A stretch of DNA of 64,000 nt from Zoroaster sp. YZ-2022 (taxonomy: Eukaryota; Echinodermata; Asteroidea; Forcipulatida; Zoroasteridae): contig CM055830.1 of assembly GCA_029582265.1 (NCBI GenBank), forward strand, positions 28,065,771 through 28,129,770, written 5' to 3'. The notes below the pieces were generated by a model that was not told the DNA's origin, searched no databases, and saw only the letters and a program-made list of their open reading frames with translations. The translations under genes were made by a program, and so were the position numbers. The first letter of the stretch is position 1, and each line of letters begins with the position of its first letter. This document shows, one piece after another, positions 5,174-51,019 of the stretch.

Positions 5174-5814
5174 CCCTCCTACTCTAGGTGCACTTTAGTG
5201 GGAAGTTGCTAGTGGTCAAAATCAGTCAATTGACCGTTTTTGACTGTTGAATCAACTGTGCACACATGGGCACTGGTGACTTGTTTTGACCATTTGGGTA
5301 GCTGCCTCACACTGTGCTATACCTGCTGGTGACTGATAAGATCATTATCAGCTTCAGGGGATCACTGACTTGTTTTGACTGAACAAACAATGATAGGGGT
5401 GCTGAAGGCTGCCAGTTTTTGACTGATAAATCAATGCAGGGCCACTTAGGCTAGGAGTCAATGACTTGTTTTGACTGATAAATTAATTTATTTTGACCAT
5501 AGTGCTAAATATCAGTCCAAAACGCTGACTCATTTTGACCACCATCCACATTATATGTACCAATTAAAAACAGTCACCTCATTTTGACCAAAGTGCCTTT
5601 ACCAGTCGAAAATGGTCAACTCATCTTGACCACCTTCAACATTGCATGATAATGCTTTTACCACTACCAGTCAAAAACAGTCGACTGTTTTTGACTGATT
5701 GATGTACTTGCTACACATTAGGTTTGACAGTATTTGACCTGTAAGTGCTGTAGATATACACTGGCATGAACTTAGAAATTTTGAATGATTTTGACCCTTG
5801 TAGTAGTAGGAGGG
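5174..5814 (+). mobile_element. TTAA-type MITE, TTTTGAC-word subfamily (long copy)
   Basis: Starts CCCTCCTACT and ends GTAGGAGGG; the flanking tetranucleotides have decayed from TTAA (TTTG and TTAG). The 641-bp interior is dominated by TTTTGACTG/CAGTCAAAA words in both orientations, at least a dozen times. It belongs to the same subfamily as 42417-42711 but is about twice as long, apparently through internal duplication. It has no coding capacity. Confidence 0.7.
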
Positions 5815-5967
5815 TTAGTCTGTATTGTTCGAGTTGGAGGAACGTACATGTATGTACATGTATATGACCAGTAATAGTTAATGTATACATACATACATAC
5901 ATGCATTGTACATGTACATGTACATGTAGTTTATGTTACAGCATCATTAGAACAGACAGTATTTATT

Positions 5968-6076
5968 CTCCCCTCCCATCCCATCCCTCCTCCTCCCTCC
6001 CTCCCCTCCTCCCTCCCTCCCTCCCTCCTCCCTCCCTCCTCCTCCCTCCCTCCCTCCTCCCTCCCTCATCTCTCCC
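5968..6076 (+). repeat. (CTCC)n pyrimidine tract
   Basis: About 110 bp of nearly pure C/T on the plus strand, made of CTCC/CTCCC units. It ends about 80 bp before the exon at 6157 and could act as an over-long polypyrimidine tract. Confidence 0.9.
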
Positions 6077-6156
6077 CTAAACAAACACATCTTTTTACAG
6101 TCTGCATCAACAGAGGCATGTCCGGTGATCAAATTGTTGTTTGTTTGTTCCCTTAG

Positions 6157-6243
6157 GCTGAGGCTCGCCTGGCAAAGAAGCGTCAAGCGAGGGCTGAAGC
6201 ACGTACTATCCGAATGAAGGAACTTGAGCGGATGCAGAGAGAG
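6157..6243 (+). CDS. LRRFIP2: LRRFIP-family protein, exon encoding the conserved AEARL head
   Basis: The exon reads AEARLAKKRQARAEARTIRM and continues KELERMQRE: 29 codons, phase 0 at both ends, with acceptor CCCTTAG and donor GTATTT. This alanine/arginine/glutamate-rich helix is the N-terminal signature of LRRFIP1/LRRFIP2, which bind the leucine-rich repeats of Flightless-I and, in vertebrates, modulate Toll-like receptor/MyD88 and Wnt signalling (family knowledge). In vertebrate proteins a short segment with the start codon precedes it. That exon is not visible, so the gene probably begins upstream of the window. Family assignment is firm; the paralogue name (1 or 2) is not, since invertebrates usually have a single member. 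Confidence 0.9.
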
Positions 6244-6484
6244 GTATTTTTATTCTTTCCACATTCAATGGCAATTTAACCGGCTACATGTTTAGTATTT
6301 CGGTAATCCACAGTTTGTAATTTGAATACTGTTCACATCAAACATGGGCCATTTTCCAAAAGTTGATACACATACACATGTACATAAAAAAGTAGGCAAC
6401 ATTTCTTAGGTCATTTTTTTATTACTTGGATTACTGAATTTTTTTTCTCCCTAAGTTGGGCAGGTAACAGAAGAAACAATACCG

Positions 6485-6521
6485 ATTGAGGGCGCCCTTC
6501 TATCAGGAGGGCGCCCTCAAT
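6485..6521. repeat. Short perfect inverted repeat
   Basis: Arms ATTGAGGGCGCCCT (6485-6498) and its exact complement (6508-6521) around a 9-bp loop. The GAGGGCGC word also occurs at the borders of the repetitive tract at 54829-55352, hinting at a shared element family. Confidence 0.8.
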
Positions 6522-6760
6522 GGCTAATTTGTTTCTTTATACACGGACACACCATATATGCAAGCTGCTGCCAATGATTCCCGGCTCATTGAGTGGAATC
6601 CATACAGGTATTATATATACGCACTGTGTAATTTGGTCCGTGGAAAGTTCCATGTAACCCTACTGCTTGGAAGAGAGGTACATGTACAGTGCAGCATTTT
6701 TGTCCGTGGAAATTTGTGTCCAACTTGGAAATGAGGTAAAGCTTTGTATGCACTGCATGT

Positions 6761-6880
6761 ACTCTGCACAGTACAAACGCACTCTGCACAGTACAAACGC
6801 ACTCTGCACAGTACAAACGCACTCTGCACAGTACAAACGCACTCTGCACAGTACAAACGCACTCTGCACAGTACAAACGC
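6761..6880. repeat. 20-bp minisatellite, six perfect copies
   Basis: Six identical head-to-tail copies of ACTCTGCACAGTACAAACGC. Because 20 is not a multiple of 3 and no frame holds a stop, the array opens several overlapping reading frames on both strands; these are artefacts. Zero divergence implies a recent expansion. Confidence 0.95.
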
Positions 6881-7037
6881 ACATGTGTATGTGCTGCTTG
6901 CGCTTGTTTTTTATTTTTTTATTTTTTTACTTGGATTGGCTTTGCAAAACGCACCGACTCCTTCGGCACCAGTTATGAACTCCCTCCCACAATTACTTGA
7001 TCCGATTTTGAAGGGATTTGTGGGTCTTTGTTTTTAA

Positions 7038-7290
7038 CCAGTTCACGTCGGGAATAAAAAAGTTTTTCTGGGCCCCTGTGCGGGTTTCTTTTCCCCACAC
7101 AAACACGTTAATGGAAGCTTCCACAGCGCGTGGCCACGTCTACCGAGCATGTCACTGTACACTCGGCTCGTTGCCACGTCAACCGAGCATGCATACAAAT
7201 ATTCCCGAGTTTCCTCTGGCGTGTATAGACACTCTCCGATCCGTGGTGCAAAAAAAATTGCATGTATACACTGCCTCCGACGCGAACTGG
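7038..7290 (+). mobile_element. TTAA-type MITE, CCAGTTCACGTCGG-terminus family, copy 1
   Basis: Flanked by TTAA on both sides; termini CCAGTTCACGTCGG and CCGACGCGAACTGG. The 253-bp interior is GC- and CpG-richer than its surroundings and holds ACCGAGCATG twice. The TTAA target duplication fits piggyBac-type transposition (inference; no transposase present). Other copies are at 14584 and 24922. Confidence 0.8.
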
Positions 7291-7488
7291 TTAATGCCTG
7301 ACATGCCAGCACTGCATTTAGGTTATAGTTACTATGGAGGGTTTTGGGTTTAGTGCTATTGGTTGACAGGAACCAATTCCAGTTAGTATCCTCTGTTCTT
7401 TGGACAGAGGTACTTCTTTCAGAGTGACAAGATTAAAGTGCCTCTTTAAACAAATGTTTGTTTCTGTTTTTGACATGATAATATCTAG

Positions 7489-7542
7489 GCAGAGGAGCAA
7501 ATGGACAAGGAATATGAGCAGTTAAAGGAAGAAAAGAAGAAT
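7489..7542 (+). CDS. LRRFIP2: LRRFIP-family protein, exon 2 of the visible set
   Basis: Eighteen codons reading AEEQMDKEYEQLKEEKKN, phase 0 at both ends, with acceptor ATATCTAG and consensus donor GTAAGT. It is highly charged and helical and continues the coiled-coil head. It follows the 6157 exon directly in frame. It is short and not individually diagnostic, but sites, phase and composition all fit. Confidence 0.75.
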
Positions 7543-8417
7543 GTAAGTTGCCTTTTTGAAATCCAATACCTTTTGGGTGTGTCTGTTTAGTTTGTATGTG
7601 ACATGCATGTACATGGTCAAAGGTCAAGAAAGATTACTTTCGCACATGTACACACCTACTGTACTGTATGTAGATATGTACATTTATTATTTCATATTGA
7701 ACCTGTACATATAATGTACTGTTTAAAGATATTTGTTTTGTTTTGTTTGCTACGTTATTATCAGTTTAAGTTTAAAAAGTAACATTTTTAAATTGACATT
7801 GCACCAAATGATTATGAGAAGTGTGGTCTTATACAAATATACATGTACTTTTTAACTTAGTAAAAGGGAAATTGCAGATTTTCAAGCAAAAAACTAAATT
7901 TCCTGTAAAATAATGTAAAAAAAAAAGTTTTTTATTCATTTATCTATAATACCAGTCAAACCTGTGTAAAGTTGTCACCCAAGCGACCGATGAAAAGTGG
8001 CCCCCAATGAATATGTTGCCTCGGTGTCCACAGCAGCTCAGTTCTGACTAAATAAAGTTTAGTACAAAATGTTTTTTTGGTCATCTCACACTGGAAGTTA
8101 TAAATTATAATGATTATTGATCAATGTACCTGTAAATCAGAAATGTTTATTGCTTATTTATCACTGTGCATTAAACATGTGTTGATCACTGTTAGTGTTA
8201 GTCTCACTATAATATGATAACTACATGTACATGTATGTTATATTAAGACAAACAACAACTTTCTAGTGCAAATCTCTTTTTTTTTCACCCAATCTACTAT
8301 AGGTACATGTACATGTAAAATTTGTACAGTGTCCATGATCAGGTTTGTGCCGTGGTGCTCCTTGAAATGTTATTTTTTATGGACATTTACATGTAACCCT
8401 ATTTAAACCTTATTTAA
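7543..8417. other. Intronic stretch, nothing recognised
   Basis: AT-rich, with scattered TACATG words. No exon or complete repeat was seen. Confidence 0.4.
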
Positions 8418-8898
8418 CCCTAACCTTCCCAAATCCTCCAAAATCCTCCAAAATCCTCTTTGCCAAAGTAAAGGATTGAGGTTATTTGGAAATTGCAGTG
8501 GTGAAGGATTGAGGGCAGATGTGATTATTTGCTTGGTGGATTATGGAGGATTGAGGTTATCAGGCTATATTTGACACTGCATGAAAATGGTGGATTGAGG
8601 GTTACATGGTACATGTTCTGTCCAAAAAATGATTCTGGAGGATTAGTACATTTACATCCAGGTTTGTTGTAGTTATTGCAAGGTCAATGCTTGGGTCAGT
8701 GGACACTGTTTATTGCTCCATGCATGCAGGGGAGGGTCCCTGGCCATGTACATGTATCACAGATTAGAAACACATCATCATACTGTACATGTACATGTCA
8801 TCTGCATACAATGGTAGTGGTCATTGTGCTTGCTTTACTACTGAAGGATTTTGGAGGATTCGGGTTATGTGTAAGCAAGTGGGCCTAGGGAGTTAGGT
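8418..8898 (+). mobile_element. TTAA-type MITE, CCCTAACC-terminus, AATCCTCC-word subfamily
   Basis: TTAA at 8414-8417 and 8899-8902; ends CCCTAACCTTCCC and CTAGGGAGTTAGG. The interior repeats AATCCTCC and its complement GGAGGATT about ten times in both orientations. It is related to 21410-21677 and 41918-42143. No coding capacity. Confidence 0.7.
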
Positions 8899-9034
8899 TT
8901 AATGGAAGTGTTCTTTACAACAAAAAATGAATTGTCTCTACAAAACCAAAGTTGAAACTTTCGCAGATCGGTAATAGAATAAAAGCACACTTTTTGAAGC
9001 AGTTTGCCAACGGTATGAATGAGGTACATACATA

Positions 9035-12632: not shown

Positions 12633-13270
12633 CCCTCCTACTGTTTGACCATTTGAAACCATTCAAAATTTCCACTTAACCAAAATGCCCATTGGTTTTG
12701 TACACACATGGTGATACCATTTGAACAGTGTTGGTAGCAAGCTTAACTACCATTCAAATCCATTCAAATGGTTTTGAATGGTTGTTACACTACACCTTGG
12801 TGCGTTTCCATAGCCGAATGGATTCAAATGGTGAATGTACTTCACAGTGGCTTATCATTCAAATGGTTTTAAATGGTGGATACATTACACCTTGGTGTGG
12901 TTTCACATAGCCGAAAAACAAAACCTGCATTATGTAGATAAAGTGGACTATCCATCATCTCAGTACCCTATGGAGTTTTAACACATGGTGGCCAGTGTAC
13001 AAGTAATTGATCTACCACTTAAAAATGGCACGAGGGTCTTTAGGGTATAGCAGACCTGTCATTCAAAACCATTTACTCATGTCACTGGCAGAGAGGGTCC
13101 ATTAATTCACCACTTAGTATCCAAACAAGGTTTTGTATTAGCTGACCTACCATTCCAAACCATTTGGGAATCAATACTGTACACAGTTATTTCACCATTC
13201 AAAACCACAAAAGCGAATGGTTTCAAATGGTGGGCCAACTTGTATGAAAAAGGCACCAGAAGTAGGAGGG
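12633..13270 (+). mobile_element. TTAA-type MITE, ATTCAAATGG-word subfamily
   Basis: TTAA on both sides; ends CCCTCCTACTG and AGTAGGAGGG. The 638-bp interior holds at least eight clusters of CCATTCAAA/TTTGAATGG/CATTTGAA in both orientations. It shares termini with the TTTTGAC elements but not the interior. Non-coding. Confidence 0.8.
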
Positions 13271-14070: not shown

Positions 14071-14380
14071 CCCTCCTACAATCAGTGCAATTTTTGAAAC
14101 AACCCATTCAGGCCACTCCAATCCATTAGCTGTTGCCAGTGGCATCCTATGGTTACCCTTCTGTGCACTGTCACACCACTGAAATTGCAGGGTAAAGTGG
14201 TCTCCCATTGATACATTGCAGGCCATAGTAATATGTTCAAACATTTACAGTGGCCTTGGGTGGCATACAGTTGATTTTGTTAGATTACTTGGAAAGGACA
14301 GCAGGCTTGTATGTACTAAAGGTTGGTGAAAAACATCTTGAAAATATAGTGGATCTGAGTGGCCTCCATGTGTAGTAGGG
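14071..14380 (+). mobile_element. TTAA-type MITE, GGCCACT-word subfamily, copy 1
   Basis: TTAA on both sides; starts CCCTCCTACAATCAGTGC, ends GTAGTAGGG. GGCCACT/AGTGGCC words recur inside. Sister copies are at 24265 (same orientation) and 45654 (reverse). Confidence 0.8.
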
Positions 14381-14583: not shown

Positions 14584-14833
14584 CCAGTTCGCATCGGGAA
14601 TAAACAAGTTTTTCTGGGCCCCTGTGCGGGTTTCTTTTTCCCACACAAACACATTAATGGAAGCTTCCACAGCGCGTGGCCACGTCTACCGAGCATGTCA
14701 CTGTACGCTCGGCTCGTTGCCACGTCAACCGAGCATGCATACAAATATTCCGGAGTTTCCTATGGCATGTTTAGACGCTCTCCGATCCGTGGTGCAAAAA
14801 TTGCGTGTATACACGGCCTCCGACGCGAACTGG
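14584..14833 (+). mobile_element. TTAA-type MITE, CCAGTTCGCATCGG-terminus family, copy 2
   Basis: Nearly identical to 7038-7290 through the interior. The left flank has decayed to TTTA; the right flank is TTAA. Confidence 0.8.
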
Positions 14834-15508: not shown

Positions 15509-16094
15509 CCCTAACTCCCTAAGCATTTTTACTAGAAACCTTCCTCAACCTATCAAATCCCAACACCATGGTTGACTGTTGCTGGTTTACAGTACTCAGC
15601 CCATCAAACTCCAACAGGCCCTTAGCTGTTGGATTTTGATTGAGTGGGGACACATGGCCCAAAGTAAAGTTTGAACACTGGAGTCACACAGTACTCAACC
15701 CATCATACATTTGTAATCCAACAATTGTTTTCATGCTAAAAAAACTTAACTATACAAAAACTAAAACACCCTATGGAATAAATGGTAGGTTCTAGTTGTA
15801 TGATGTTAGACACAATGCCAAGCATACCTAAGTACAATATTTGCCTTTATCAGTTGTTTATTACAGCAGGTTGCATACACACACTCTCTCCACTCAAAGT
15901 CTAACAATGTTGCATGCTAGTAGAACCACCGTCCTCACTCAATCAAAATCCAACACTGTTACTGCACACATACAGTACTCATCCAGCCATATTCCAACAC
16001 TTTACACATGCCATATCAGAAGTACACAGTACTCAACCCATCAAACTCCAACAATCCCTGGTGTTGGAGTTTGGCTGGATGGGGATCGTTAGGG
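15509..16094 (+). mobile_element. TTAA-type MITE, CCAACA-word subfamily
   Basis: TTAA on both sides; ends CCCTAACTCCCTA and CGTTAGGG. The interior repeats ATCAAACTCCAACA-like words (and TGTTGGA complements) seven or more times. Termini relate it to the CCCTAAC group at 8418 and 21410; the interior word is different. Confidence 0.75.
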
Positions 16095-19299: not shown

Positions 19300-19629
19300 T
19301 ATGCAAATCGCCCCACACAAGGCCAATGTCCACTCCAAGGTGGGGGCTACTAAGTCATTGAGTTGTTACAACGACTCCACACTGAAGAAACCAGCCCCTC
19401 ACACTGAAACAAGACAAGTTAATAACCAGCCTCTTCACGGTGCGAATAGGACTGGGAGGGGTAACTAGTCCAGAACAAGGCAGTTGTTAAACTGCCTCTG
19501 CCCCTATAAGCAATTATGGTTAAGTGTCTTGTTCAAGGACACAAGTGTCACGGCCGGGATTCGAACCCACATTCTGCTGCTAACACCAGAACTTGAGTCC
19601 GGTAAGCTAGACCGCTCGGCCATGACACT
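19300..19629 (-). repeat. Chimeric SINE: same tRNA-Leu head, different body
   Basis: On the minus strand it starts TGTCATGGCCGAGCGGTCTAG with the CTCAAGT anticodon loop and B box, and keeps the common segment up to AACCATAATTGCTT. It then diverges completely into GGGGCAGAGGCAGTTTAAC and later TAGCCCCCACCTTGGAGTGG, ending in an A/T-rich tail (about 19262-19305) instead of the ATT tail. It is a second SINE type sharing the promoter head. Confidence 0.7.
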
Positions 19630-19754: not shown

Positions 19755-20047
19755 CCCTTCTACTACTACAAGGGTCAAAATCAGTCAAAATGTTGATATA
19801 CTTGCCAAGGTATATCTAGTGCACTTAAAAGTCAAACACTGTCAAACCTTACGTGTAGTAAGTATATTTACAGGTCAAAATGTGTCGACTGTTTTTGACT
19901 GGTAAAAGCGTTGTCTGGTATTGTTCAGGGTGGTCAAAATGACAGTCAAAACCAGTCAAAAATGCCCCTGTGTGTACATTTGGGTCAACAGTCAAGACGG
20001 GCAGTTGACTGGTTTTGACCTCTACAGCAACAGCAATAGTAGGAGGG
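19755..20047 (-). mobile_element. TTAA-type MITE, TTTTGAC-word subfamily
   Basis: TTAA on both sides. Reverse orientation relative to 42417: begins CCCTTCTACTACTACAAGGG and ends AGTAGGAGGG. Dense GTCAAAA/TTTTGAC words. Confidence 0.85.
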
Positions 20048-21409: not shown

Positions 21410-21677
21410 CCCTAACCACCCCAAATCATACAAAATCCTCCAAGGGGCACTTTTTGGGAACAATTCAGCACTGTTTGAAACTGGTACTTTCACCTCTTCA
21501 AATGGGACAAAATTACTACCTGGCAAGAAGTACATTACAGGCCATAAGTGCTGAATAATGAAAGATTAACGAAAATGCATGGCGCATTTTGAAGATAAGG
21601 GCATGTTTTCAAAAGTGCACTGATGGATTTTGGAGGATTCAGGACGGTTCCTAGCCAGAATAACTAGGGGGTTAGGG
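21410..21677 (+). mobile_element. TTAA-type MITE, CCCTAACC-terminus, short copy
   Basis: TTAA on both sides; ends CCCTAACCACCCC and GGGGGTTAGGG, with AAATCCTCCAAGGGGCAC near the left and GATTTTGGAGGATTC near the right. It is a near-sister of 41918-42143. Confidence 0.8.
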
Positions 21678-22865: not shown

Positions 22866-23234
22866 GAGTGTCATGGTCGAGCGGTTTAGTGCATCGGATT
22901 TGTGTTCTGATGGCTGAGTTGTCAGAATGTGGGTTCGAATCCCAACCACGACCATGGTGCTTGTGTCCTTGAGCAAGACACTTTACCATAATTGCTTCTC
23001 TCCACCCAGGGGTAAATGGGTACCTGTGAGGGCAGAGTTGGTTGTTGTGTTTGATTAGCCCTATATGCGCTGTAATGGCAGCAATTGAGCTGTGTACTCC
23101 CCAGGGAGCTGAGATGGTTTCAGGAATGATTTATGAGTCTGATGAGCAGGGGTAATAATGTAATGCGCCTCGAGCACCAGTTTGGTGGATACGTGCGCTA
23201 TATAAGTCCACATTATTATTATTATTATTATTAT
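22866..23234 (+). repeat. SINE, full length, TGT-loop subfamily
   Basis: Head GAGTGTCATGGTCGAGCGG, B box GGGTTCGAATCCC, then the common body and an ATT tail. The anticodon-loop equivalent is TTTGTGT, which distinguishes this subfamily from the CTCAAGT copies at 1386, 19300 and 43441. Intronic, between exons 22343 and 23381. Open frames across it are SINE translations, not genes. Confidence 0.92.
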
Positions 23235-23673: not shown

Positions 23674-23968
23674 CCCTCCTATTGATGCACTTTAGTGGAA
23701 AGTTGCTATAGAGGTCAAAACCAGTCAACTGCCTGTTTTGACTGTTGACCCAAATGTGCACACAGGGACATTTATGACTGGTGTTTACTGTCATTTTGAC
23801 CACCCTCAGCAATACCAGACAATGCTTTTTACCAGTCAAAAACAGTTAAATCATTTTGACCTGTAAATGTACTTTCTACACGTAAGGTTTGACAGTGTTC
23901 GACTTTTCAGTGCACTAGATATACCTTGGGAAGTATATCAACATTTTGACTGATTTTGACCCTTGTAC
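23674..23968 (+). mobile_element. TTAA-type MITE, TTTTGAC-word subfamily, right end lost
   Basis: TTAA then CCCTCCTATTGATGCACTTT; the body matches 42417-42711 to TTTTGACCCTTGTA, after which the GTAGGAGGG terminus and TTAA are missing. Confidence 0.75.
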
Positions 23969-24264: not shown

Positions 24265-24574
24265 CCCTCCTACAATCAGTGCAATTTTTGAAACAATCCA
24301 TTCAGGCCACTCCAAGCCATTAGCTGTTGCCATTGGCCTCCTATGGTTACCCTTCTGTGCACTGTCACACCACCGAGATTGCAGGGTAAGGTGGTCTCCC
24401 ATTGATACATTGCAGGCCATACTAATATGTTCAAACATTTACAGTGGCCTTGGGTGGCACTGGGTTGATTTTGTAAGATTACTTGGAAAGGACAGCAGGC
24501 TTGTACATGTATGTACTGAAGGTTGCTCACGAGCAGAATTTTGTGGATCGGAGTGGCCTCCATGTGTAGTAGGG
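24265..24574 (+). mobile_element. TTAA-type MITE, GGCCACT-word subfamily, copy 2
   Basis: Closely matches 14071-14380. Starts CCCTCCTACAATCAGTGC, ends GTAGTAGGG; flanks have decayed to TTAT and TTGT. Confidence 0.75.
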
Positions 24575-25675: not shown

Positions 25676-25995
25676 GTGAGTCATTTATTTATTTCTTTAA
25701 TTGTTTTTTTAAGGCCTCAGTTTTGTTACATTTTACAAATTTTGTCCAATCCTGTAGCCACTTTTGTAGAGCACCTATGCAGGAAAAATTTATTTTAGCA
25801 TGAATAACCAAACTATCCAATTGTAATGTAAAGCTGATGATGATTTGAATCTTCCCTATAATTTTGTCCAAAGTGAAATAGCTTTTTAAAAAGTGAAAAA
25901 GTTTTGAATTTAGATTTAATATACAAATCTGAACTCATTTTCTCTATTTTCTTGCTAACAACTCAACATAATTACAATGTTATCTGAAATTTTTA

Positions 25996-26219
25996 TTATA
26001 TCTAGATTCAAAGTAAGCATACTTACGAAAGACGTTTTGCTAGCATTACCAATGCTGTACCTTCTTTTTTTATTATATCTAGATTCAAAGTAAGCGTACT
26101 TACGAAAGACGTTTTGCTAGCATTACCAATGCTGTACCTTTTTTTATATATTTATATCTAGATTCAAAGTAAGCATACTTACAAAAGACGTTTTGCTAGC
26201 ATTACCAATGCTGTACTTT
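25996..26219. repeat. Three-copy tandem repeat, about 78-bp unit
   Basis: Three head-to-tail copies of a unit with ATCTAGATTCAAAGTAAGC, ACTTAC-AAAGACGTTTTGCTAGC and ATTACCAATGCTGTAC, each followed by a T-rich spacer of slightly different length. Only a few substitutions separate the copies. Confidence 0.92.
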
Positions 26220-26409
26220 CTTTCAAAACAAAAATTGTTATTCTTGTTTGAAGTATAGTCTTCAGTGTCAAGTTCCCTTAGATAACCACACAAATAATGT
26301 ATGCGAAATGTAGGCACCAGTCTATATTGAGTATGAACCTCCTTTTTGATCAACATAGTTTTATGTGTCGAAAATCCAAGATGGCTTCTGCATTGCAGTG
26401 ACCTAGATG

Positions 26410-29400
26410 TAAGCTTGGGCGATAGCGATTTTCATCCACGATATATCATCAAACATGTCACGATTTTCGATCATATCGCGATTTGTTTTCATTCACGCAT
26501 GATTGCTTTAGAGCCGATAAACACAGGTATGTACCTCTCAACAAGCGTCACAACAAGTCACCGGTGCTTGGCTGAGAGACACATACTATCCTGCCATTCA
26601 CGCGTGCACAATGGACATTGGCCAATTTGTTTCACAAAGTACAATAGAATTGCATTTTAGAAATGTCATGAGCCCCGACTTTTGACGAAGGAGCCACCGT
26701 CGATCCGTGCTTTGATTGACAGGAGCGGCAATTCATTAAAAGCTCTTACGTGTAGATATGGCCCGCAACATACATGTACCTCAGTTCAGCACAGTCAACG
26801 CATTATGCAATTGAGTGCCTACGTACATACTGGCAAGGTATATAAATGAAAATGCAACATTATGAACAATATAAATTTGCTAAATTTGCAAATCTATCCA
26901 ATCACGACGCTCAGAAACAGGCATGTGATCCTCAACTATGGCCCATCAGCTCACACGTGGTACATGTATGTGTCTGTATGTATTGTGTTCTTTGGGGAAT
27001 TCCCTTTCAGTTATTTTCATGTCGAAATCTTTGTGTTGAATTTCCCAATTCTAGTATATTTTTTAAAAATCATGAAATTATGGCTCAGTGGAATAAGATT
27101 GTAAATATAAAGTAAAAATAACTAGTATTAAGTACAGTTTTTATGATTATTTTTGACTAGCCCGCTGGACTACTTTGAAAGCCATTTTGACCTGTCCGCC
27201 GCCATTTTACCTGGCATGTGGCTTATGTTCAGTACTATACGGTGAACACAATGTCATTATTCATATTACGGGGTGCGCAGTGGGCGGTACCAAGTACGAT
27301 GGCTAGACGTGCGTGATCGCCACATGGCTAACTTTGTTAAGTTTCGTCGACATCGATATCATTGAAAGTCACACTAAAACTAATAATTAAAATGGGTCCT
27401 GGTCGTTAATTTATTTGTACTATAGACCGGACCATCTCAAACAAACAAATATATCACCCTAAATTTTTTTATGAACCTGTTGTATCCATCAAGGATTGCA
27501 ATAACCTGAAGGAAAATGAAAGAGTCTATAAATTATGTAGGTCATGGTGCGACTTGTTTACGTGCTGTGACGGAACGAACAACAAATGAAGCCAAACACT
27601 AACTTCAAATCGGTATTTACATATAAACCAACAGCTATAGTTTATACCAATTTAATTAGAGGATCAGAGACCATCATAGCTAGAAAGTGAGATGTAAACC
27701 TTTACTACACATTGTTCTATTCAACCCACCACTTAATCCGTCTGAATAGGTTTCTTTGAGTGTCGTGGCCGAGTATTTACATATAAACCAACAGCTATAG
27801 TTTATACCAATTTAATTAGAGGGTCAGAGACCACCATAGCTAGAAAGTGAGATGTAAACCTTTACTACACATTGTTCTATTCAACCCACCACTTAATCTG
27901 TCTGAATAGGTTTCTTTGAGTGTCGTGGCCGAGTATTTACATATAAACCAACAGCTATAGTTTATACCAATTTAATTAGAGGGTCAGAGACCACCATAGC
28001 TAGAAAGTGAGATGTAAACCTTTTCTACACATTGTTCTATTCAACCCACCACTTAATCTGTCTGAATAGGTTTCTTTGAGTGTCGTGGCTTTAGTATTTA
28101 CATATAAACCAACAGCTATAGTTTATACCAATTTAATTAGAGGGTCAGAGACCACCATAGCTAGAAAGTGAGATGTAAACCTTTTCTACACATTGTTCTA
28201 TTCAACCCACCACTTAATCTGTCTGAATAGGTTTCTTTGAGTGTCGTGGCCGAGTATTTACATATAAACCAACAGCTATAGTTTATACCAATTTAATTAG
28301 AGGGTCAGAGACCACCATAGCTAGAAAGTGAGATGTAAACCTTTTCTACACATTGTTCTATTCAACCCACCACTTAATCTGTCTGAATAGGTTTCTTTGA
28401 GTGTCGTGGTTAGTATTTACATATAAACCAACAGCTATAGTTTATACCAATTTAATTAGAGGGTCAGAGACCACCATAGCTAGAAAGTGAGATGTAAACC
28501 TTTACTACACATTGTTCTATTCAACCCACCACTTAATCCGTCTGAATAGGTTTCTTTGAGTGTCGTGGCCGAGTATTTACATATAAACCAACAGCTATAG
28601 TTTATACCAATTTAATTAGAGGGTCAGAGACCACCATAGCTAGAAAGTGAGATGTAAACCTTTACTACACATTGTTCTATTCAACCCACCACTTAATCCG
28701 TCTGAATAGGTTTCTTTGAGTGTCGTGGCCGAGTATTTACATATAAACCAACAGCTATAGTTTATACCAATTTAATTAGAGGGTCAGAGACCACCATAGC
28801 TAGAAAGTGAGATGTAAACCTTTTCTACACATTGTTCTATTCAACCCACCACTTAATCTGTCTGAATAGGTTTCTTTGAGTGTCGTGGCCGAGTATTTAC
28901 ATATAAACCAACAGCTATAGTTTATACCAATTTAATTAGAGGGTCAGAGACCACCATAGCTAGAAAGTGAGATGTAAACCTTTACTACACATTGTTCTAT
29001 TCAACCCACCACTTAATCCGTCTGAATAGGTTTCTTTGAGTGTCGTGGCCGAGTATTTACATATAAACCAACAGCTATAGTTTATACCAATTTAATTAGA
29101 GGGTCAGAGACCACCATAGCTAGAAAGTGAGATGTAAACCTTTTCTACACATTGTTCTATTCAACCCACCACTTAATCTGTCTGAATAGGTTTCTTTGAG
29201 TGTCGGTGTGTATTTACATATAAACCAACAGCTATAGTTTATACCAATTTAATTAGAGGGTCAGAGACCACCATAGCTAGAAAGTGAGATGTAAACCTTT
29301 ACTACACATTGTTCTATTCAACCCACCACTTAATCCGTCTGAATAGGTTTCTTTGAGTGTCACGAGTATTTACATATAAACCAACAGCTATAGTTTATAC

Positions 29401-31383
29401 CAATTTAATTAGAGGGTCAGAGACCACCATAGCTAGAAAGTGAGATGTAAACCTTTACTACACATTGTTCTATTCAACCCACCACTTAATCCGTCTGAAT
29501 AGGTTTCTTTGAGTGTCGTGGCCGAGTATTTACATATAAACCAACAGCTATAGTTTATACCAATTTAATTAGAGGGTCAGAGACCACCATAGCTAGAAAG
29601 TGAGATGTAAACCTTTCACATTGTTCTATTCAACCCACCACTTAATCCGTCTGAATAGGTTTCTTTGAGTGTCGTGGCCGAGTATTTACATATAAACCAA
29701 CAGCTATAGTTTATACCAATTTAATTAGAGGGTCAGAGACCACCATAGCTAGAAAGTGAGATGTAAACCTTTACTACACATTGTTCTATTCAACCCACCA
29801 CTTAATCCGTCTGAATAGGTTTCTTTGAGTGTCGTGTATTTACATATAAACCAACAGCTATAGTTTATACCAATTTAATTAGAGGGTCAGAGACCACCAT
29901 AGCTAGAAAGTGAGATGTAAACCTTTACTACACATTGTTCTATTCAACCCACCACTTAATCCGTCTGAATAGGTTTCTTTGAGTGTCGTGGCCGAGTATA
30001 AACCAACAGCTATAGTTTATACCAATTTAATTAGAGGGTCAGAGACCATCATAGCTAGAAAGTGAGATGTAAACCTTTTCTACACATTGTTCTATTCAAC
30101 CCACCACTTAATCCGTCTGAATAGGTTTCTTTGAGTGTCGTGGCCGAGTATTTACATATAAACCAACAGCTATAGTTTATACCAATTTAATTAGAGGGTC
30201 AGATACCACCATAGCTAGAAAGTGAGATGTAAACCTTTTCTACACATTGTTCTATTCAACCCACCACTTAATCTGTCTGAATAGGTTTCTTTGAGTGTCG
30301 TGGCTTTAGTATTTACATATAAACCAACAGCTATAGTTTATACCAATTTAATTAGAGGGTCAGAGACCACCATAGCTAGAAAGTGAGATGTAAACCTTTT
30401 CTACACATTGTTCTATTCAACCCACCACTTAATCCGTCTGAATAGGTTTCTTTGAGTGTCGTGGCCGAGTATTTACATATAAACCAACAGCTATAGTTTA
30501 TACCAATTTAATTAGAGGGTCAGATACCACCATAGCTAGAAAGTGAGATGTAAACCTTTACTACACATTGTTCTATTCAATCCACCACTTAATCCGTCTG
30601 AATAGGTTTCTTTGAGTGTCGTGGCCGAGTATTTACATATAAACCAACAGCTATAGTTTATACCAATTTAATTAGAGGGTCAGAGACCACCATGGCTAGA
30701 AAGTGAGATGTAAACCTTTTCTACACATTGTTCTATTCAACCTACCACTTAATCCGTCTGAATAGGTTTCTTTGAGTGTCGTGGCCGAGTATTTACATAT
30801 AAACCAACAGCTATAGTTTATACCAATTTAATTAGAGGGTCAGAGACCACCATAGCTAGAAAGTGAGATGTAAACCTTTTCTACACATTGTTCTATTCAA
30901 CCCACCACTTAATCTGTCTGAATAGGTTTCTTTGAGTGTCGTGGCCGAGTATTTACATATAAACCAACAGCTATAGTTTATACCAATTTAATTAGAGGGT
31001 CAGAGACCACCATAGCTAGAAAGTGAGATGTAAACCTTTTCTACACATTGTTCTATTCAATCCACCACTTAATCCGTCTGAATAGGTTTCTTTGAGTGGC
31101 GGTGGATAGAGAAACAATGCCCAGTGGGGCGGTTCCTGTGTGATCCAACAGTCGGCTTACCACTGAAGTAATTCGCTTTTGTTACGCACTTCCGAAATGT
31201 GAAAAGACTGGTCTGGTTTTGTTTCCATGGAATTTCTGTCTGGACTCACAATCGCGATATTTTTTCATCACGATATATATTTTTTAATCGCGATTTGCCG
31301 ATATATCGATAACTTGAAAAGTTCTCGCTATCGTAATCGAAGTGTCGCGATATTCGATATTATCGTGTTATCGCCCAAGCTTA
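26410..31383. mobile_element. hAT-like element carrying an internal satellite array
   Basis: Inverted termini TAAGCTTGGGCGATA and TATCGCCCAAGCTTA followed by subterminal CGATATATCG/TATCGCGAT words. The left arm (26410-27613) and right arm (31099-31383) match, in inverted order, the arms of the element at 37185-38544 (for example GAGAGACACATACTATCCTG versus its counterpart). The middle is occupied by a 22-unit tandem array. No exact 8-bp target duplication is visible and no transposase was recognised. It makes up most of the 5.8-kb LRRFIP intron between exons 25463 and 31513. Confidence 0.8.
27614..31098. repeat. Tandem array, 22 units of about 160 bp
   Basis: Units begin TATTTACATATAAACCAACA and end GGTTTCTTTGAGTGTC plus a short variable join. 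Starts fall at 27614, 27774, 27934, 28095, 28255, 28414, 28574, 28734, 28894, 29054, 29211, 29367, 29527, 29683, 29837, 29997, 30149, 30310, 30470, 30630, 30790 and 30950. Units differ at few sites (TTTACTAC or TTTTCTAC; AATCCGTC or AATCTGTC; GAGACCACC or GATACCACC), so the array is young or homogenised. The period is near nucleosome length. No reading frame runs through it. Confidence 0.97.
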
Positions 31384-31980: not shown

Positions 31981-32342
31981 GGAGTGCCATGGTCGAGCGG
32001 TTTAGTGCATCGGATTTGTGTTCTGATGGCTGAGTCGTCAGAATGTGGGTTCGAATCCCAACCGCGACCATGGTGCTTGTGTCCTTGAGCAAGACACTTT
32101 ACCATAATTGCTTCTCTCCACCCAAGGGTAAATGGGTACCTGTGAGGGCAGAGTTGGTTGTTGTGTTTGATTAGCCCTATATGCGCTGTAATGGCAGCAA
32201 TTGCTCCCCAGGGAGCTGAGATGGTTTCATGAATGATTTATGTGCCTGAAGAGCAGGGGTAATAATATAATGCGTCTTGAGCACCAGTTTGGTGGATACG
32301 TGTGCTATATAAGTCCACATTATTATTATTATTATTATTATT
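31981..32342 (+). repeat. SINE, full length, TGT-loop subfamily
   Basis: Head GGAGTGCCATGGTCGAGCGG, B box GGGTTCGAATCCC, complete body (lacking a few bases around CAATTGCTCCCCAG) and ATT tail. Intronic between LRRFIP exons 31513 and 32610. Confidence 0.92.
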
Positions 32343-37108: not shown

Positions 37109-37180
37109 CCCTATCTCCCTAGACAACAAAGCCAGTTGGAGGATTTTTATTGTTATAGTACAATGCCTAGGGAGTTAAGG
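37109..37180 (+). mobile_element. 72-bp TTAA-type MITE
   Basis: TTAA on both sides; ends CCCTATCTCCCTAG and CTAGGGAGTTAAGG. It is the smallest member of the CCCTAAC-terminus group, with one CAGTTGGAGGATTTTTATTG core. It directly abuts the hAT-like element at 37185. Confidence 0.7.
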
Positions 37181-41917: not shown

Positions 41918-42143
41918 CCGTAACAACCCCAAATTCTGCAAAATCCTCCAAGGGGCACTTCTTGGGATAAATTAAGCACTGTTGGAAATTAGTATTTTTA
42001 AGTACAGGCCGCAAGTGCTGAATATGAAAGATCAACAAAAATGCATGGTGCATTTTGAAGATAAGGGCATGTTTCCAAAAGTGCACTGATGCATTGTGGA
42101 GGATTCAGAAAGGTTCCTAGCTAGAATACCTAGGGGGTTAGAG
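41918..42143 (+). mobile_element. TTAA-type MITE, CCCTAACC-terminus group
   Basis: TTAA at the left (TTGA at the right). Starts CCGTAACAACCCC, ends GGGGGTTAGAG, with AAATCCTCCAAGGGGCACTT-like interior. Sister of 21410-21677. Lies between the two candidate AKR last exons. Confidence 0.75.
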
Positions 42144-42406
42144 TTGAAGGTGATTTAATATGATGCATCTACAAAGTGACCTTTTATCAATGGCCTAAAC
42201 TTGCATCCAATCAAACTCATTCTCAGCTCTCAAAACTAAAAATCAGGTGTGTAAAACATTTAAAGAGAAAGTATACCACTAGTTAACATTCATTATACCA
42301 TGCTCTCATGTAAATAAAGAAATATATAAGAACCAACTTGGAAATTTGATACAATTATCAAAATTCTGAACAAAATAATTGGCATTTGCATTTGAGTTTA
42401 TTAACC

Positions 42407-42412
42407 CTCCTA
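42407..42412 (-). promoter_or_regulatory. Possible AKR poly(A) signal at a MITE border
   Basis: Minus-strand AATAAA formed partly by the TTAA target site of the MITE at 42417, about 430 bp past the stop of the proximal last exon. Position only; use is unproven. Confidence 0.25.
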
Positions 42413-42416
42413 CTAT

Positions 42417-42711
42417 TGCTGCACTTTAGTGGGAAGTTGCTGTAGAGGTCAAAACCAGTCAACTGCCTGTTTTGACTGTTGACCCAAATGTGCACACAAA
42501 GGGCTTTTTTGACCGGTTTTTACTGTCATTTTGACCACCCTGAACAATACCAAACAATGCTTTTACCAGTCAAAAATGGTCGACTCATTTTGACCTGTAA
42601 ATGTACTTATTACACGTAAGGTTTGAGAGTGTTCGACTTTTTAAGTGTACTAGATATACCTTGGCAAGTATATCAAAATTTTGACTGATTTTGACCCTTG
42701 TAGTAGGAGGG
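42417..42711 (+). mobile_element. TTAA-type MITE, TTTTGAC-word subfamily, best-preserved copy
   Basis: TTAA exact on both sides; ends CCCTCCTACTATTGC and GTAGTAGGAGGG. It contains about ten TTTTGAC/GTCAAAA words (GTCAAAACCAGTCAACTGCC, TTTTGACTGTTGACCC and others). 295 bp, non-coding. Serves as reference for 5174, 19755, 23674, 47537 and 50698. Confidence 0.88.
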
Positions 42712-44346: not shown

Positions 44347-44956
44347 CTGTGATAGATTTAACCAGAACATGTATTTTATATTACTAACAAGAATTATCAT
44401 TTCAAATACAAATACATGTATAACACATACAGTTGTTTTAATCTCTTTCAACTTGATGTGTGGTTCTACTGTTGGTTATATGTCTGTAAATGAATACTTT
44501 AAGTAACCCTTGTATACATGCAGTCTCCAAAATGCCACAAAAACAAAAACTGCTAAGTACATGCTTTTTCTATGCATGCCATAAAATATTGCATACTGTA
44601 CACAAGAATGGTACATGGATACCCCAAAATGCCCCTGTGTCTGGGACAAAAACAAAGTGTTCTGACCTTCACACTGTATGTGTATACCCCAAGTTACTGC
44701 ACTGGTTTATTTCAAGTTAGCCTTGCAATGAAACAAAGCAGGTAGCTGCTTCATTTTACCTCATCTCTCCAAAGAGCCTTGGGGTATGCCATTAATCTTT
44801 AGATAAGAAAGTGTGTACCTCAAAATGTCACTGTTGTGACATTTTGAAGTATGGGTCCACTTTGTAAAGAACAACACTGATAATAGGAGGGTTTTAAAGA
44901 ATAAAGTATAAAAAACCAGGCTGTAAAAGTTTCATCTTATTTCAGTGTGTCATTAA
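44347..44956. other. AKR intron, partial word-repeat element
   Basis: Around 44590-44898 ATACCCCAAAATG/TACCTCAAAATGTCAC words and a right-end-like AATAGGAGGG followed by TTTT suggest a decayed TTAA-type element, but its left end cannot be set. Confidence 0.3.
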
Positions 44957-45298
44957 CCCTCCTATAGGTTTAACAATCAAAGACACTCAAAATTTGTATG
45001 TCACTCCCAACCCATTGACTTTGTGCAGTGCAGTGCACTCAAATAAATGCAAGGACATGTGGCTCTGGTAGGAGGTCAAACCAAAACCACTCGACTGTAA
45101 CTTATGCAGTACATACACAGCTCTGTGTGACTCTGCATATAACTTGTAAGACATACACAAGTGTGTTTGACTTTGCCACTATCTCCAGCACTCTTATACA
45201 CATGTGTGAACAATTGGCAATGCAACCAAAAATACTCAAGTGACTGTCTGTGGGTGCGGTGCTTACTGGGCCAAATTTCAGCCATGGGCATAGGAGGG
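44957..45298 (+). mobile_element. TTAA-type MITE, CACTCAA-word subfamily
   Basis: TTAA on both sides; ends CCCTCCTATAGG and CATAGGAGGG. The interior carries ACACTCAAAA, GCACTCAAAT, ACTCAAGTGAC and related words. Another interior type with shared ends. Confidence 0.75.
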
Positions 45299-45653: not shown

Positions 45654-45963
45654 CCCTCCTACACATGGAGGCCACTCCGATCCACAAAATTCTGTTCCTG
45701 AGCAACCTTCAGTACATACATGTACATGCCTGCTGTCCTTTCCAAGTAATCTTACAAAATCAACTGTGTGCCACCCAAGGCCACTGTAAATGTTTGAACA
45801 TATTAGTATGGCCTGCAATGTATCGATGGGAGACCACCTTACCCTGCAATCTCAGTGGTGTGACAGTGCACAGAAGGGTAACCATAGGAGGCCACTCGCA
45901 ACAGCTAATGGCTTGGAGTGGCCTGAATGGGTTGTTTCAAAAATTGCACTGATTGTAGGAGGG
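45654..45963 (-). mobile_element. TTAA-type MITE, GGCCACT-word subfamily, copy 3
   Basis: Reverse-oriented sister of 14071 and 24265: begins CCCTCCTACACATGGAGGCC, ends GATTGTAGGAGGG. Flanks have decayed (CTAA left, GAAG right). The reading frames in it are shared with the copy at 24265 and are not genes. Confidence 0.8.
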
Positions 45964-47383: not shown

Positions 47384-47536
47384 CTGGAAGAGAATCAACA
47401 AATATGACACTGATCAAGTTTCTGAACAAAAAGAAAATATTTTAAGGGAAGGTACATCATCGGTAATGTTGGCAAAACTACTTCTACATGTGTGATTATG
47501 CTTCTTTACTATCTTTGAATCAAGATATTCATTTAA

Positions 47537-47830
47537 CCCTCCTACCATAGCAGCACTTTAGTGGCAAGTTGCTATACAGGTCAAAATCAGTCAACTGCCT
47601 GTTTTGACTGTTGACCCAAATGTGCACACAGGGGCATTTTTGACTGGTTTTTACTGTCATTTTGACCAACAACAATACAAGACAATGCTTTTACAAGTCA
47701 AAAACGGTCAACTCATTTTGACCTGTAAATGTACTTCACGTAAGGTTTGACAGTGTTTGACTTTTAAGTGCACCAGATATAACTTGGCAAGTATATCAAC
47801 ATTTTGACCCTTGTATACGTAGTAGGAGGG
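47537..47830 (+). mobile_element. TTAA-type MITE, TTTTGAC-word subfamily
   Basis: TTAA exact on both sides; ends CCCTCCTACCATAGC and GTAGTAGGAGGG. Closely follows 42417-42711 with a few indels. Confidence 0.88.
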
Positions 47831-48064
47831 TTAACAAGCAATCTGTGTAAGTTTATGTTTATTACATTGTGTATTGAAAATAAAGTGTCAAAAGCTTAAT
47901 TCCATTTTTAATTCAAGTGGAATAAAATAAAAGGATTGCAATTATAGCTATATCGCTATTGATTTGATTCCTTTCCTTTGAATTACATTATTGATTTGAA
48001 ATTGAATAACTATAATTTATTTCATTATTTTCCAATAAAAATCCATTGCATCACATACATAAAA

Positions 48065-48419
48065 ATAATAATGTGGACTTATTATAGCGCACGCATCCAC
48101 CAAACTGGTGCTCAAGGCGCATTATATTATTACCCCTGCTCATCAGGCTCATAAATCATTCCTGAAACCATCTCAGCTCCCTGGGGAGTATACAGCTCAA
48201 TTCCTGCCATTACAACGCATATAGGGCTAATCAAACACAACAACCAACTCTGCCCTCACAGTCACAGGTACCCATTTACCCCTGGGTGGAGAGAAGCAAT
48301 TATGGTAAAGTGTCTTGCTCAAGGACACAAGCACCACAGTCGCGGTTGGGATTCGAACCCACATTCTGACGACTCAGCCATCAGAATACAAATCCGATGC
48401 ACTAAACCGCTCGACCATG
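48065..48419 (-). repeat. SINE abutting an AKR splice donor
   Basis: Full-length TGT-loop SINE on the minus strand with ATT tail at 48065. Its head (ATGGTCGAGCGG) begins 3-4 bp inside the AKR intron that starts at 48422. The usual first bases GTGTC of the SINE are absent, replaced by the GTAC of the splice donor. Confidence 0.88.
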
Positions 48420-48422
48420 TAC

Positions 48423-48611
48423 CTTCTTTGTGCAACTTTTCCAGGGCCATCCAGGAAGCTTTCCTGTAGCCTGCATGTCTAGGATCTTCAGCTTTCATCT
48501 TAGCCTTAGCAGGCCAGTGGATTAGATAAAGGTCTAGGTAATCTATCTGAAGCCTCTCTAAGGTTTCTAAGCAGCCTGTGTAGGCCTCCTCCAACCCATG
48601 ATCTTTGGGAT
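48423..48611 (-). CDS. Aldo-keto reductase, exon with the catalytic His (LIHWP)
   Basis: Minus strand; acceptor TATCTTGCAG, donor GTACAT; two bases, 62 codons and one base. PKDHGLEEAYTGCLETLERL, then QIDYLDLYLIHWPAKAKMKA and EDPRHAGYRKASWMALEKLH-KE. DLYLIHWP carries the tetrad histidine (visible residue 94, 33 residues after the catalytic Lys, the standard spacing), and W-x-ALEKL is the conserved helix. The donor lies directly next to a SINE. An open frame continuing into the SINE is not coding. Confidence 0.96.
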
Positions 48612-48817
48612 CTGCAAGATACATGATCATATACATGTAGTAAAGGTGTCTAGCCTGGATTTACCACAATTCAATTTTGACAGATGTGATTTGCATCTCC
48701 AGGCTAAGTAATGGACAATCAAACATGGAAGTCTTGTGACTTTTCATTCATGATTTTTCATTCATGCAAATACCTGGATAGCAAACATCATGATGTGGTC
48801 TAGTATGCATTTTATAA

Positions 48818-49027
48818 CCTGAACAACCCCAAAGCCATCAAACCCCAATGGCTGGTTGTGTCGCATTTTGATGGACTCAAACTGTACAGCTCAGACAAGG
48901 ATACTTTGCATGGGGCCAGGTGTCCCGCACTTCCATCCAAGTCCAACTGTTGGTTGGTAGTGAGACTGTATGGTGGATTTTGGTTAATTCAGGAAGGTTC
49001 TTTGGCAAAATAATATGGGGTTAGGGG
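48818..49027 (+). mobile_element. Decayed TTAA-type MITE, CCCTAAC-terminus group
   Basis: Right end GGGGTTAGGGG followed by TTAA; left end decayed to CCTGAACAACCCC after TATAA. The interior has CATCAAACCCCAATGGC and GTCCAACTGTTGGTTGG words like 15509-16094. Confidence 0.5.
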
Positions 49028-49338
49028 TTAAAGGGGTGTACAGCATGGGTAATTACTGAAAAGGAATCGAAAAGAATCTAAAAGCTTTAATAGTAGATGG
49101 TAATGATACAAACATCATCCAATTGTATTTTGTCTGACATCCGTTGTCATTTTTAGGAATTTTACATTAATAAAAATTCAAATCTGAAATAGCTCATCAG
49201 CTGCTGAAAAACGGAAGAACAACGTGCTGCGATTTTGCCTACCATTGTCGGCAAACTTTTGACATATGTGACCAACGTGCAAATAGCTTACAAAGTTTAC
49301 TGTGCAAAGATTAAGGTCTATCTCAATACATATCCTAC

Positions 49339-49446
49339 CTAATTTACTTGTAATAAATAAGTCAGACCTCTTTAAGCCATGCTTAAGGAGAAGTTCTTTG
49401 ATGCAGTCTCCAATGTCTGTCTCATTCTTATACACTGCTGCAGTAT
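49339..49446 (-). CDS. Aldo-keto reductase, exon with catalytic Tyr and Lys
   Basis: Minus strand; acceptor TCATCTTTAG, donor GTAGGA; two bases, 35 codons, one base. TAAVYKNETDIGDCIKELLL then KHGLKRSDLFITSKL. The Tyr of AVYKNE is the proton donor (5 residues after the catalytic Asp of the previous exon), and the Lys of ITSKL (29 further on) lowers its pKa; both spacings match the family exactly. A longer open frame through this exon includes flanking intron and should not be read as one protein. Confidence 0.96.
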
Positions 49447-49900
49447 CTAAAGATGACAAAAATAAGATGTTCGTAAAGCCATTCAACTTTGAAAACAAAA
49501 TGAAAGTGGGAATTAATTCCCAATGGGAATAAAAGTGGCCACACCAATGATTTGAAACCCCAGTGAGTCCATCCCATAATTCGGGACCACAGTGGGTGTA
49601 TCCTGCCATGCCCATTATTTTAAACCCCAGTCGGCATATTCCATCACACCCATGATTTGAGACCCTGCTGGGTGTAACCATAGTGATAATCAACTGGTCA
49701 GTTATCATTTAAACAAAATCTTTTAAATCAGAATTGTTTTCTATTGTTTTTTGTGCTAATTAAAGATACACTTTTGTCATACTTTTTGTGAGATTAATAT
49801 AATGTACATTTATTACCCCCAAAAAGAAACACAATTGTTACATGCGCATGCAATCAATATTGGCACACTTTACCTGACCGCAAGATTGTTTAAGTGTTAA

Positions 49901-50284
49901 TAATAACAATAATAATAGTAATAATAATGTGGACTTATATAGCGCATGTATCCACCAAACTGGTGCTCAAGGCGCATTATATTATTACCCCTGTTCATCA
50001 GGCTCATAAATCATTCCTGAAACCATCTCGGCTCCCTGGGGAGTATACAGCTGAATTGCTGCCATTACAGCGCATATATATAGGCCTAATCAAACACAAC
50101 AACCAACTCTGCCCTCACAGGTACCCATTTACCCCTGGGTGGAGAGAAGCAATTATGGTAAAGTGTCTTGCTCAAGGACACAAGCATTACGGTCGCGGTT
50201 GGGATTCGAACCCACATTCTGATGACTCAGCCATCAGAACACAAATCCAATGCACGAAACCGCTCGACCATGACAGTGGCACTC
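49901..50284 (-). repeat. SINE, full length, TGT-loop subfamily
   Basis: Minus strand: head CATGGTCGAGCGG, B box GGGTTCGAATCCC, full body, (ATT)n tail at 49901-49929. The 173-codon open frame over it is spurious. Confidence 0.9.
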
Positions 50285-50697
50285 TATGTTTCTTTAGAGA
50301 AACATGTGGTCAGGTCAGATGTCCCAATGATGACTGTGCGTTAACAAAAGCAATGTACATTTTAAGCTCACAAAAAGAACGATATGAAGTGAACTGTTTT
50401 GGTACTGTTTTGTAAATGCATCCATACTTTGCAAGAATCAAAATGTGTTCAGAAACCAGCCTGTAACCTGTGAAAATTCCAACTTAATTATTTCAATATC
50501 ACTTAAACTAATCCCACTGCCTCTTACTCTGTATTGATTAATTTGAAGTTGAAAATTCTGTTGGGAATTTATTTTCTCTTAATTTTACTGAAATGACACC
50601 TCATACAGAACATATTCACGGGTTATCATCCTCAACTTTATTCCAAGTAAATTTTAAATTGAAACTGTGATAAATTATGCTTATTGAGATTACTTAA

Positions 50698-51019
50698 CCC
50701 TCCTACTACTACAAGGGTCAAAAATCAGTCAAAATGTTGACTGGTTTTTACTGTCATTTTGACCACCCTGAACAATACCACACAGTCAAACAATGTAAAA
50801 GAACTTTACGTGTAGTAAGTACATTTACAGGTCAAAATGAGTCGACTGTTTTTGACTGGTAAAAGCATTGTGTGGTATTGTTCAGGGTGGTCAAAATGAC
50901 AGTAAAAACCAGTCATAAATGCCCCTGTGTGCACATTTGGGTCAACAGTCAAAACAGGCAGTTGACTGGTTTTGACCTCTACAGCAACTTCCCACTAAAG
51001 TGCAGCAATAGTAGGATAG
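50698..51019 (-). mobile_element. TTAA-type MITE, TTTTGAC-word subfamily
   Basis: TTAA at left; starts CCCTCCTACTACTACAAGGG; right end GTAGGATAG followed by TTGA. Dense GTCAAAA words, with part of the interior (CAGGGTGGTCAAAATGACAG) duplicated in inverse orientation. Confidence 0.82.

Follow-up and report, generated by a model that had tools for sequence, protein, structure and literature searches.

Can a transposon keep its ends while the short word inside it changes from one family to the next, and what would hold such an arrangement together? The question is raised by a window of 64,000 nucleotides of DNA from the sea star Zoroaster sp. YZ-2022 (GenBank assembly GCA_029582265.1, contig CM055830.1, positions 28,065,771 to 28,129,770 of the forward strand), in which 17 short elements with inverted tips, many of them flanked by TTAA, lie between positions 5,174 and 51,019; all coordinates below are positions in this window. 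An original prediction, made from the letters of the sequence, described these elements as a superfamily with common ends whose interiors are each built from a different short word. Our analysis indicates that they are probably non-autonomous mini-transposons of piggyBac type, and that the words are likely to be diverged transposase-binding sites held under a fixed ruler.

The elements form two groups by their tips. All eleven predicted elements with CCCTCCTA tips (here A to K) and all six with CCCTAAC tips (a to f) were found, with two slips in the list: the element given at 42417 begins at 42405, and the tip at 19755 reads CCCTTCTA. In the window CCCTCCTA occurs exactly 18 times and TTAACCCTCCTA 12 times. 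The elements are 72–641 bp long, bounded by terminal inverted repeats (TIRs) and non-coding, as is expected of miniature inverted-repeat transposable elements (MITEs), and no open reading frame of at least 150 amino acids lies inside any of the 17. The tip of T. ni piggyBac is of the CCC type. Well-preserved copies were said to have TTAA on both sides, which is exactly true of ten of the 17 (B, C, D, G, H, J, a, b, c and d), while four have it on one side only (E, K, e and f) and three on neither (A, F and I). The pattern CC[C/T]T, a hallmark of piggyBac (PMC2872659), fits 27 of the 33 surviving ends; K and a each have one end that does not fit, the degenerate elements e and f have two, and the right end of E is gone. 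CCCTC is among the 5' motifs of animal piggyBac TIRs, and published piggyBac TIRs include ones that keep a 5' motif while the rest of the sequence diverges (PMC10813416). The TTAA flanks and the CC[C/T]T tips support a TTAA/piggyBac-type origin.

When the 17 elements are compared with the window by BLAST, those with CCCTCCTA tips fall into four families. The TTTTGAC family comprises A (5174–5814, + strand), D (19755–20047, –), E (23674–23967, +), G (42405–42711, +), J (47537–47830, +) and K (50698–51019, –); the GGCCACT family comprises C (14071–14380, +), F (24265–24574, +) and I (45654–45963, –); B and H each stand alone. Among the CCCTAAC elements, c and e form one family, a has just stretches of 24–34 bp in common with c/e, and b, d and f are separate. 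The window therefore holds six TTTTGAC copies, three GGCCACT copies, two of c/e and single copies of the other six. Identity is 84–92% among the short TTTTGAC copies and 89–96% among the GGCCACT copies, and within each family these copies align over nearly their full length, except for a rewritten stretch in K and the lost end of E. A is the long member of its family (641 bp): its bp 1–117 and 448–641 match the short copies, and the 330-bp middle (bp 118–447) is extra, rich in words and without a match. Interiors are thus inherited within families as in ordinary MITEs, and the idea that ends are kept while the interior changes within one copy group was not confirmed. Between families the interior does change under constant ends. 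Dissimilar interiors are typical of different MITE families (PMC2872659).

The regularity that calls for explanation lies just inside the tips. In 16 elements (E, with its right end lost, was left out) the two ends were compared, the left as read and the right reverse-complemented, with the first 10 bp skipped, and the comparison was repeated with the tips re-anchored at TTAA for 14 of them (D and J were not repeated). One word block is found at both ends, within bp 11–39 of one tip and exactly 24 bp deeper at the other, and this is the top diagonal in B, C, F, I, a, b and c. In B (12633–13270, +; word CATTCAAA; TTAA on both sides) the short-spacer block ACCATTTGAAACCATTC (12648–12664, +; bp 16–32 from the tip) and the long-spacer block (13215–13231, –; bp 40–56) are identical in 17 of 17 bp. 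C has its blocks at bp 35–58 on the left and 11–34 on the right. The same offset is seen in a (8418–8898, +; word AATCCTCC), with blocks at bp 11–33 left and 35–57 right, in b (15509–16094, +; word CCAACA), at bp 35–63 left and 11–39 right, and in c (21410–21677, +; word AATCCTCC), at bp 15–29 left and 39–53 right. When eight family representatives are counted, with the TTTTGAC family represented by its end consensus and element d not included, the offset is exactly 24 in six: TTTTGAC, GGCCACT, B, a, b and c. These six carry five distinct words, a and c having one word in common. In 400 mononucleotide shuffles of one end, with absolute offsets counted, at most five of the eight representatives fell at any one offset; five were reached just once, and six never. 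Short and long ends were assigned after inspection.

Single TTTTGAC copies deviate from the 24 bp of their consensus, with top diagonals of 22 in A, 27 in G, 9 in D, 23 in K (24 being third) and 26 in J (21 being third), a scatter that we attribute to small insertions and deletions in the tip or spacer. D has its short-spacer end at the low coordinate and lacks 15 bp at its long-spacer end, and J is without one 10-bp word unit near its short-spacer end. G is well preserved, with TTAA on both sides; its long-spacer block, GGTCAAAACCAGTCAA, is at 42447–42462 (+; bp 43–58 from the tip) and its short-spacer block at 42681–42696 (–; bp 16–31 from the tip, bp 19–34 in the family consensus). The top score of the end comparison was reached by none of 200 shuffles for A, B, C, D, G, I, a and b, and by one of 200 for F, c and e; shuffles reached it more often for K (6/200), J (7/200) and d (43/200). 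Element d (37109–37180, +) is a minimal, near-symmetric element of 72 bp in which each tip is followed by CTCCCTAG and a single AATCCTCC word is present, and the top offset between its 36-bp halves is 13, and weak. Across 30 left/right pairings of ends from different families, the offsets scatter.

The end blocks also share an A-tract register, for which the TTTTGAC family was represented by the short end of D and the long end of G. At short-spacer ends CAAA starts at bp 22 in six of the eight families and at bp 32 in five, with one or the other in all eight; at long-spacer ends it starts at bp 46, which is 22 + 24, in five of eight (TTTTGAC, a, b, c and f). These counts were reached in none of 1000 dinucleotide shuffles and none of 1000 end rotations, and a model of random word drift was set aside after this result in both nulls. 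CAAAAT at bp 32–37 is identical in A, B, D, F, H, I and a. In the CCCTAAC group a long-end spacer similar in sequence to GAACCTTCCTGAA, at about bp 27–40, is common to b, c, e and f with small differences, though their words differ, and in the CCCTCCTA group TGC at long-end bp 16–18 is common to TTTTGAC, B and GGCCACT, not to H. Nor are the end words unrelated to one another, many of them being versions of a CAAA half-site that keep to one register. Judged from the sequence, the end words of different families look like positional homologues that differ by substitutions around a common A-tract, with GGCCACT showing this homology in one end only. Wholesale replacement of one word by another, the mode originally proposed, is not supported: interiors are inherited within families, and between families the end words appear to have changed by substitution.

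The fixed 24-bp end asymmetry and the A-tract register support the words as a transposase-binding site; the prediction that they bind a host or transposase factor is upheld to that extent, and a host factor is kept as a rival below. We infer that piggyBac-type transposases would move these non-autonomous elements, their catalytic core reading the conserved tip (CCCT and a few more bp) beside TTAA and their C-terminal DNA-binding domain reading the word. The word would be an internal repeat of one or two 10-bp half-sites around the A-tract, placed at about bp 11–39 at one end and 24 bp deeper at the other. Because the core and the C-terminal domain would read separate stretches, the word would be free to diverge together with its reader, with the tip, the register of the A-tract and the 24-bp asymmetry kept constant. 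Further copies in the interior, at spacings of about 10 and 44 bp and in both orientations, would come from slippage and from template switching in gap repair, and may act as additional binding sites. In a more far-reaching form, which we put forward tentatively and with more doubt than belief, the C-terminal module of a piggyBac lineage would have been re-specified several times in one genome under fixed core recognition, register and 24-bp asymmetry, so that the MITE words might be a fossil record of module specificity, with half-sites arranged head-to-tail and not as palindromes.

The interior copies themselves have a preferred spacing. When same-strand word distances were pooled over six elements with different words, 11 pairs were found at 10 bp against 2.3 expected and 13 at 42–46 bp against 3.7 expected; the pile-up at 42–46 bp was reached by none of 3000 random placements, and there is no excess at 20–40 or 60–80 bp. 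After removal of the words in the terminal 64 bp, the 42–46 bp class keeps 13 pairs against 2.7 (0/2000), and the 10-bp class is weaker, with 5 against 1.8 (p = 0.024). Individual copies reveal how interiors change. K carries a 47-bp segment in inverted copy (arms at 50738–50784, +, and 50869–50915, –) in place of the stretch that its relatives have; the arms match at 47 of 47 positions and lie 84 bp apart, and by eye the junctions have 3–5 bp of common sequence. J lacks a 10-bp word unit where its relatives have two tandem words, and in a the tandem units number three, as against two in c, one of them degenerate. To us these changes resemble what template switching and slippage would leave behind. 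The proposal that interiors grow by copying a motif is thereby supported for template switching in one element, K, and for loss or gain of a 10-bp unit in J and a.

The word content of the interiors is more modest than was predicted. The top 7-mer exceeds dinucleotide shuffles (its count reached by at most 2 of 200) in ten of the 17 elements, namely A, B, D, E, G, I, J, K, a and b, and no such excess is present in C, F, H, c, d, e and f, so that a word density above shuffled sequence holds for part of the set; with 8-mers C passes (2/200), F nearly does (3/200) and E fails (12/200). Measured against random segments of the same window, a background that contains simple repeats, the 7-mer excess is smaller: 3–10 of 200 segments reach the counts of A, D, E, G, J and K, and 16–45 of 200 those of B, I, a and b. 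Exact words are far denser within their own element than outside all elements (TTTTGAC, for example, 18.7 versus 0.35 per kb). They do not fill the interior as claimed, since coverage is just 9–22% in the six elements measured, and CATTCAAATGG has just two exact occurrences. A scan of viral contigs for the exact words gave no matches. Among 16 elements, dyads within 20 bp are clearly enriched in the TTTTGAC family only, where the counts of A, D, E, G, J and K are reached by at most 1 of 100 shuffles and by 2–6 of 100 background segments; shuffles reach the count of c in 6 of 100, that of B in 10 of 100 and those of the remaining elements more often. When whole elements were folded as DNA and compared with 20 mononucleotide shuffles each, most of 12 were more stable than their shuffles (z of –16.3 for K, –9.8 for A, –1.4 for H and –1.3 for d), which we treat as a consequence of the inverted words and not as a function.

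Several observations weigh against a transposase that reads the word under a fixed ruler. The long ends of GGCCACT, B and H have no CAAA at bp 46. H (44957–45298, +; word CACTCAA; TTAA on both sides) has an offset of 25 and f (48818–49027, +) a top offset of 34, both weak, with shuffles reaching their scores in 44 and 52 of 200, and in e (41918–42143, +), a degenerate relative of c, the top diagonal is 1 (score 11) and an offset of 24 comes third (score 7). Some cross-family pairings match the scores of true pairs, reaching up to 15; the evidence is therefore the common offset and not the score. In piggyBac and piggyBat the known sites are palindromic, while several end blocks here have a head-to-tail look at 10 bp. 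A and B contribute ten of the 13 pairs at 42–46 bp, and such distances could arise by tandem duplication, so that the interior spacing is weaker evidence than the end register. The joined flanks of the 17 elements have no matching empty copy within the window. Finally, TTAA did not stand out among self-complementary 4-mers in a general scan for inverted tips next to them: it gave eight pairs (six of the 17 listed elements and two others), against raw counts of 41 for CATG and 27 for GTAC.

The most serious alternative is that these are ordinary, unrelated MITE families descended from several piggyBac-like parents, their words being fragments of the parents together with slippage repeats that have no binding role. 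It would account for interiors that are common within families and unrelated between them, for the relation of A, the longer element, to the short TTTTGAC copies and for the visible changes of slippage and template-switch type. Random internal fragments, however, should not produce a fixed 24-bp offset and an A-tract register across different words, and we consider this explanation unlikely. Alternatively, the words might bind a host factor, such as a chromatin or transcription factor, in place of a transposase. That the words also occur inside the elements, not only at the ends, would suit such a factor, but a host site need not hold constant asymmetric distances from the tips while its sequence changes, which makes this reading highly improbable. 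The least probable of all is that the elements belong to the Kolobok superfamily, which resembles them, as does Xenopus T2-MITE, in its TTAA target, its MITEs and a mention of simple-sequence repeats but has RR or AGGRR ends, with full-length Xenopus copies AG-ended (PMC6004289), whereas no RR (AG or GG) stands beside TTAA here and the tips are CCCT.

How the proposed piggyBac-type word sites relate to known systems is best seen in T. ni piggyBac. There the first 16 bp are contacted by the core and dimerisation domains, and the C-terminal cysteine-rich domain binds as a dimer to an internal repeat at bp 17–33 that contains an A-tract at bp 22–25 (PMC7351741). Its minimal ends are LE35 and RE63, and in cells the native enzyme depends on the end asymmetry, a hyperactive one less so (PMC7351741). 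The elements described here share with it the TTAA target, an internal repeat that lies near one tip and deeper at the other, and an A-tract inside that repeat, AAA starting at bp 23 and/or 33. They differ in the distance between the ends, 28 bp there (63 minus 35) and 24 bp here, and in the site, which is palindromic there; here the blocks often look head-to-tail and there are extra interior copies. In piggyBat of Myotis lucifugus the subterminal motifs start at bp 11, 55 and 99, that is 44 bp apart, on one end of an asymmetric pair, and the C-terminal domain has a fold and a palindrome unrelated to those of piggyBac (PMC11707139). The spacing on one end and the asymmetry recall our elements; unlike them, piggyBat has palindromes on one end only, where here one block is present at both. 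An asymmetric internal repeat near both tips is thus known for T. ni piggyBac and not universal. A preprint describes a piggyBat with piggyBac C-terminal domains and the matching site, a system that is active provided both engineered proteins are supplied (PMC13405395).

Two further comparisons can be made. The coral CMITEs of Acropora are MITEs that likewise combine TTAA, CC[C/T]T tips and an internal stretch that is conserved; in them it is the TIRs that vary around a constant interior, the reverse of the conserved tips and differing interiors seen here (PMC2872659). In their printed 60-base consensus GAGTAAAATC occurs twice, 25 bp apart, the first copy lying in a GACGA..TCGTC dyad (PMC2872659), and the conserved, unexplained interior may be a pair of binding sites too. 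Galileo and Foldback are also internally repetitive with inverted ends, but are described as having a P-element-type transposase and long TIRs that are themselves repetitive (PMC3573991), in place of short tips and TTAA. A 24-bp/A-tract pattern was not found in the literature searched on piggyBac MITEs (sponges; hemichordates, echinoderms and brachiopods), subterminal spacing and the evolution of C-terminal domain specificity, and searches for CCCTCCTAC tips with piggyBac and TTAA gave nothing related, as judged by title.

The surroundings are animal DNA with a G+C content of 37.2%. An orphan CCCTCCTA end is found at 44701–44891 (–), with its tip at 44884–44891 and a perfect dyad, TCAAAATGTCAC..GTGACATTTTGA, at 44820–44847; a partner end was looked for and none was found. 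Two copies of another inverted-tip element, with CCAGTTCGCGTC-like tips, lie at 7038–7290 and 14584–14833, the first with TTAA on both sides and the second on one, and this element is unrelated to either the CCCTCCTA or the CCCTAAC tip group. A Pfam scan of ten open reading frames gave one aldo/keto reductase stretch above the cut-off, a second below it (E 0.081) and an LRRFIP stretch in one frame, and no other families. A query joined from four aldo/keto reductase stretches had 7006 protein matches; among the 120 listed, Saccoglossus has the highest identity for a named species (69% over 64% of the query), and one contig encodes 87% identity over 45% of the query. Rfam gave no matches at the gathering threshold. 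Downstream of the LRRFIP-like exon (25.4–25.8 kb) runs a satellite-like array (27613–31098) of about 22 copies of a 160-bp unit with 96% matches; other tandem repeats are a 20-bp unit at 6761–6882 (about six perfect copies) and a 77-bp unit at 25990–26223 (three tandem copies, 94% matches). tRNA-like sequences (two for Leu, two for Thr, one for Ser) are predicted at five places, 1388–1469, 19545–19626, 22870–22953, 31986–32069 and 50191–50274, and several of them overlap a repeat with a frame reading close to DSNPHSDDSAIRTQIRCTKPLDH, perhaps a tRNA-derived short interspersed nuclear element.

By the sequence features tested in cis, namely TTAA, CC[C/T]T and an asymmetric internal repeat, the elements are of a known kind, piggyBac-type MITEs. 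The 24-bp asymmetry with phased A-tracts under changing words is a new regularity, and one that can be checked. This left/right offset, together with the phased A-tracts, would offer a simple signature for MITEs of this piggyBac-type group. If the words are indeed binding sites of piggyBac-type transposases, such sites could be read directly from non-autonomous copies by comparing their two ends, and a constant ruler with a changing word would amount to a natural series of matched pairs of C-terminal domain and site, which would help to explain how piggyBac ends are brought together in synapsis and how recognition is re-specified.

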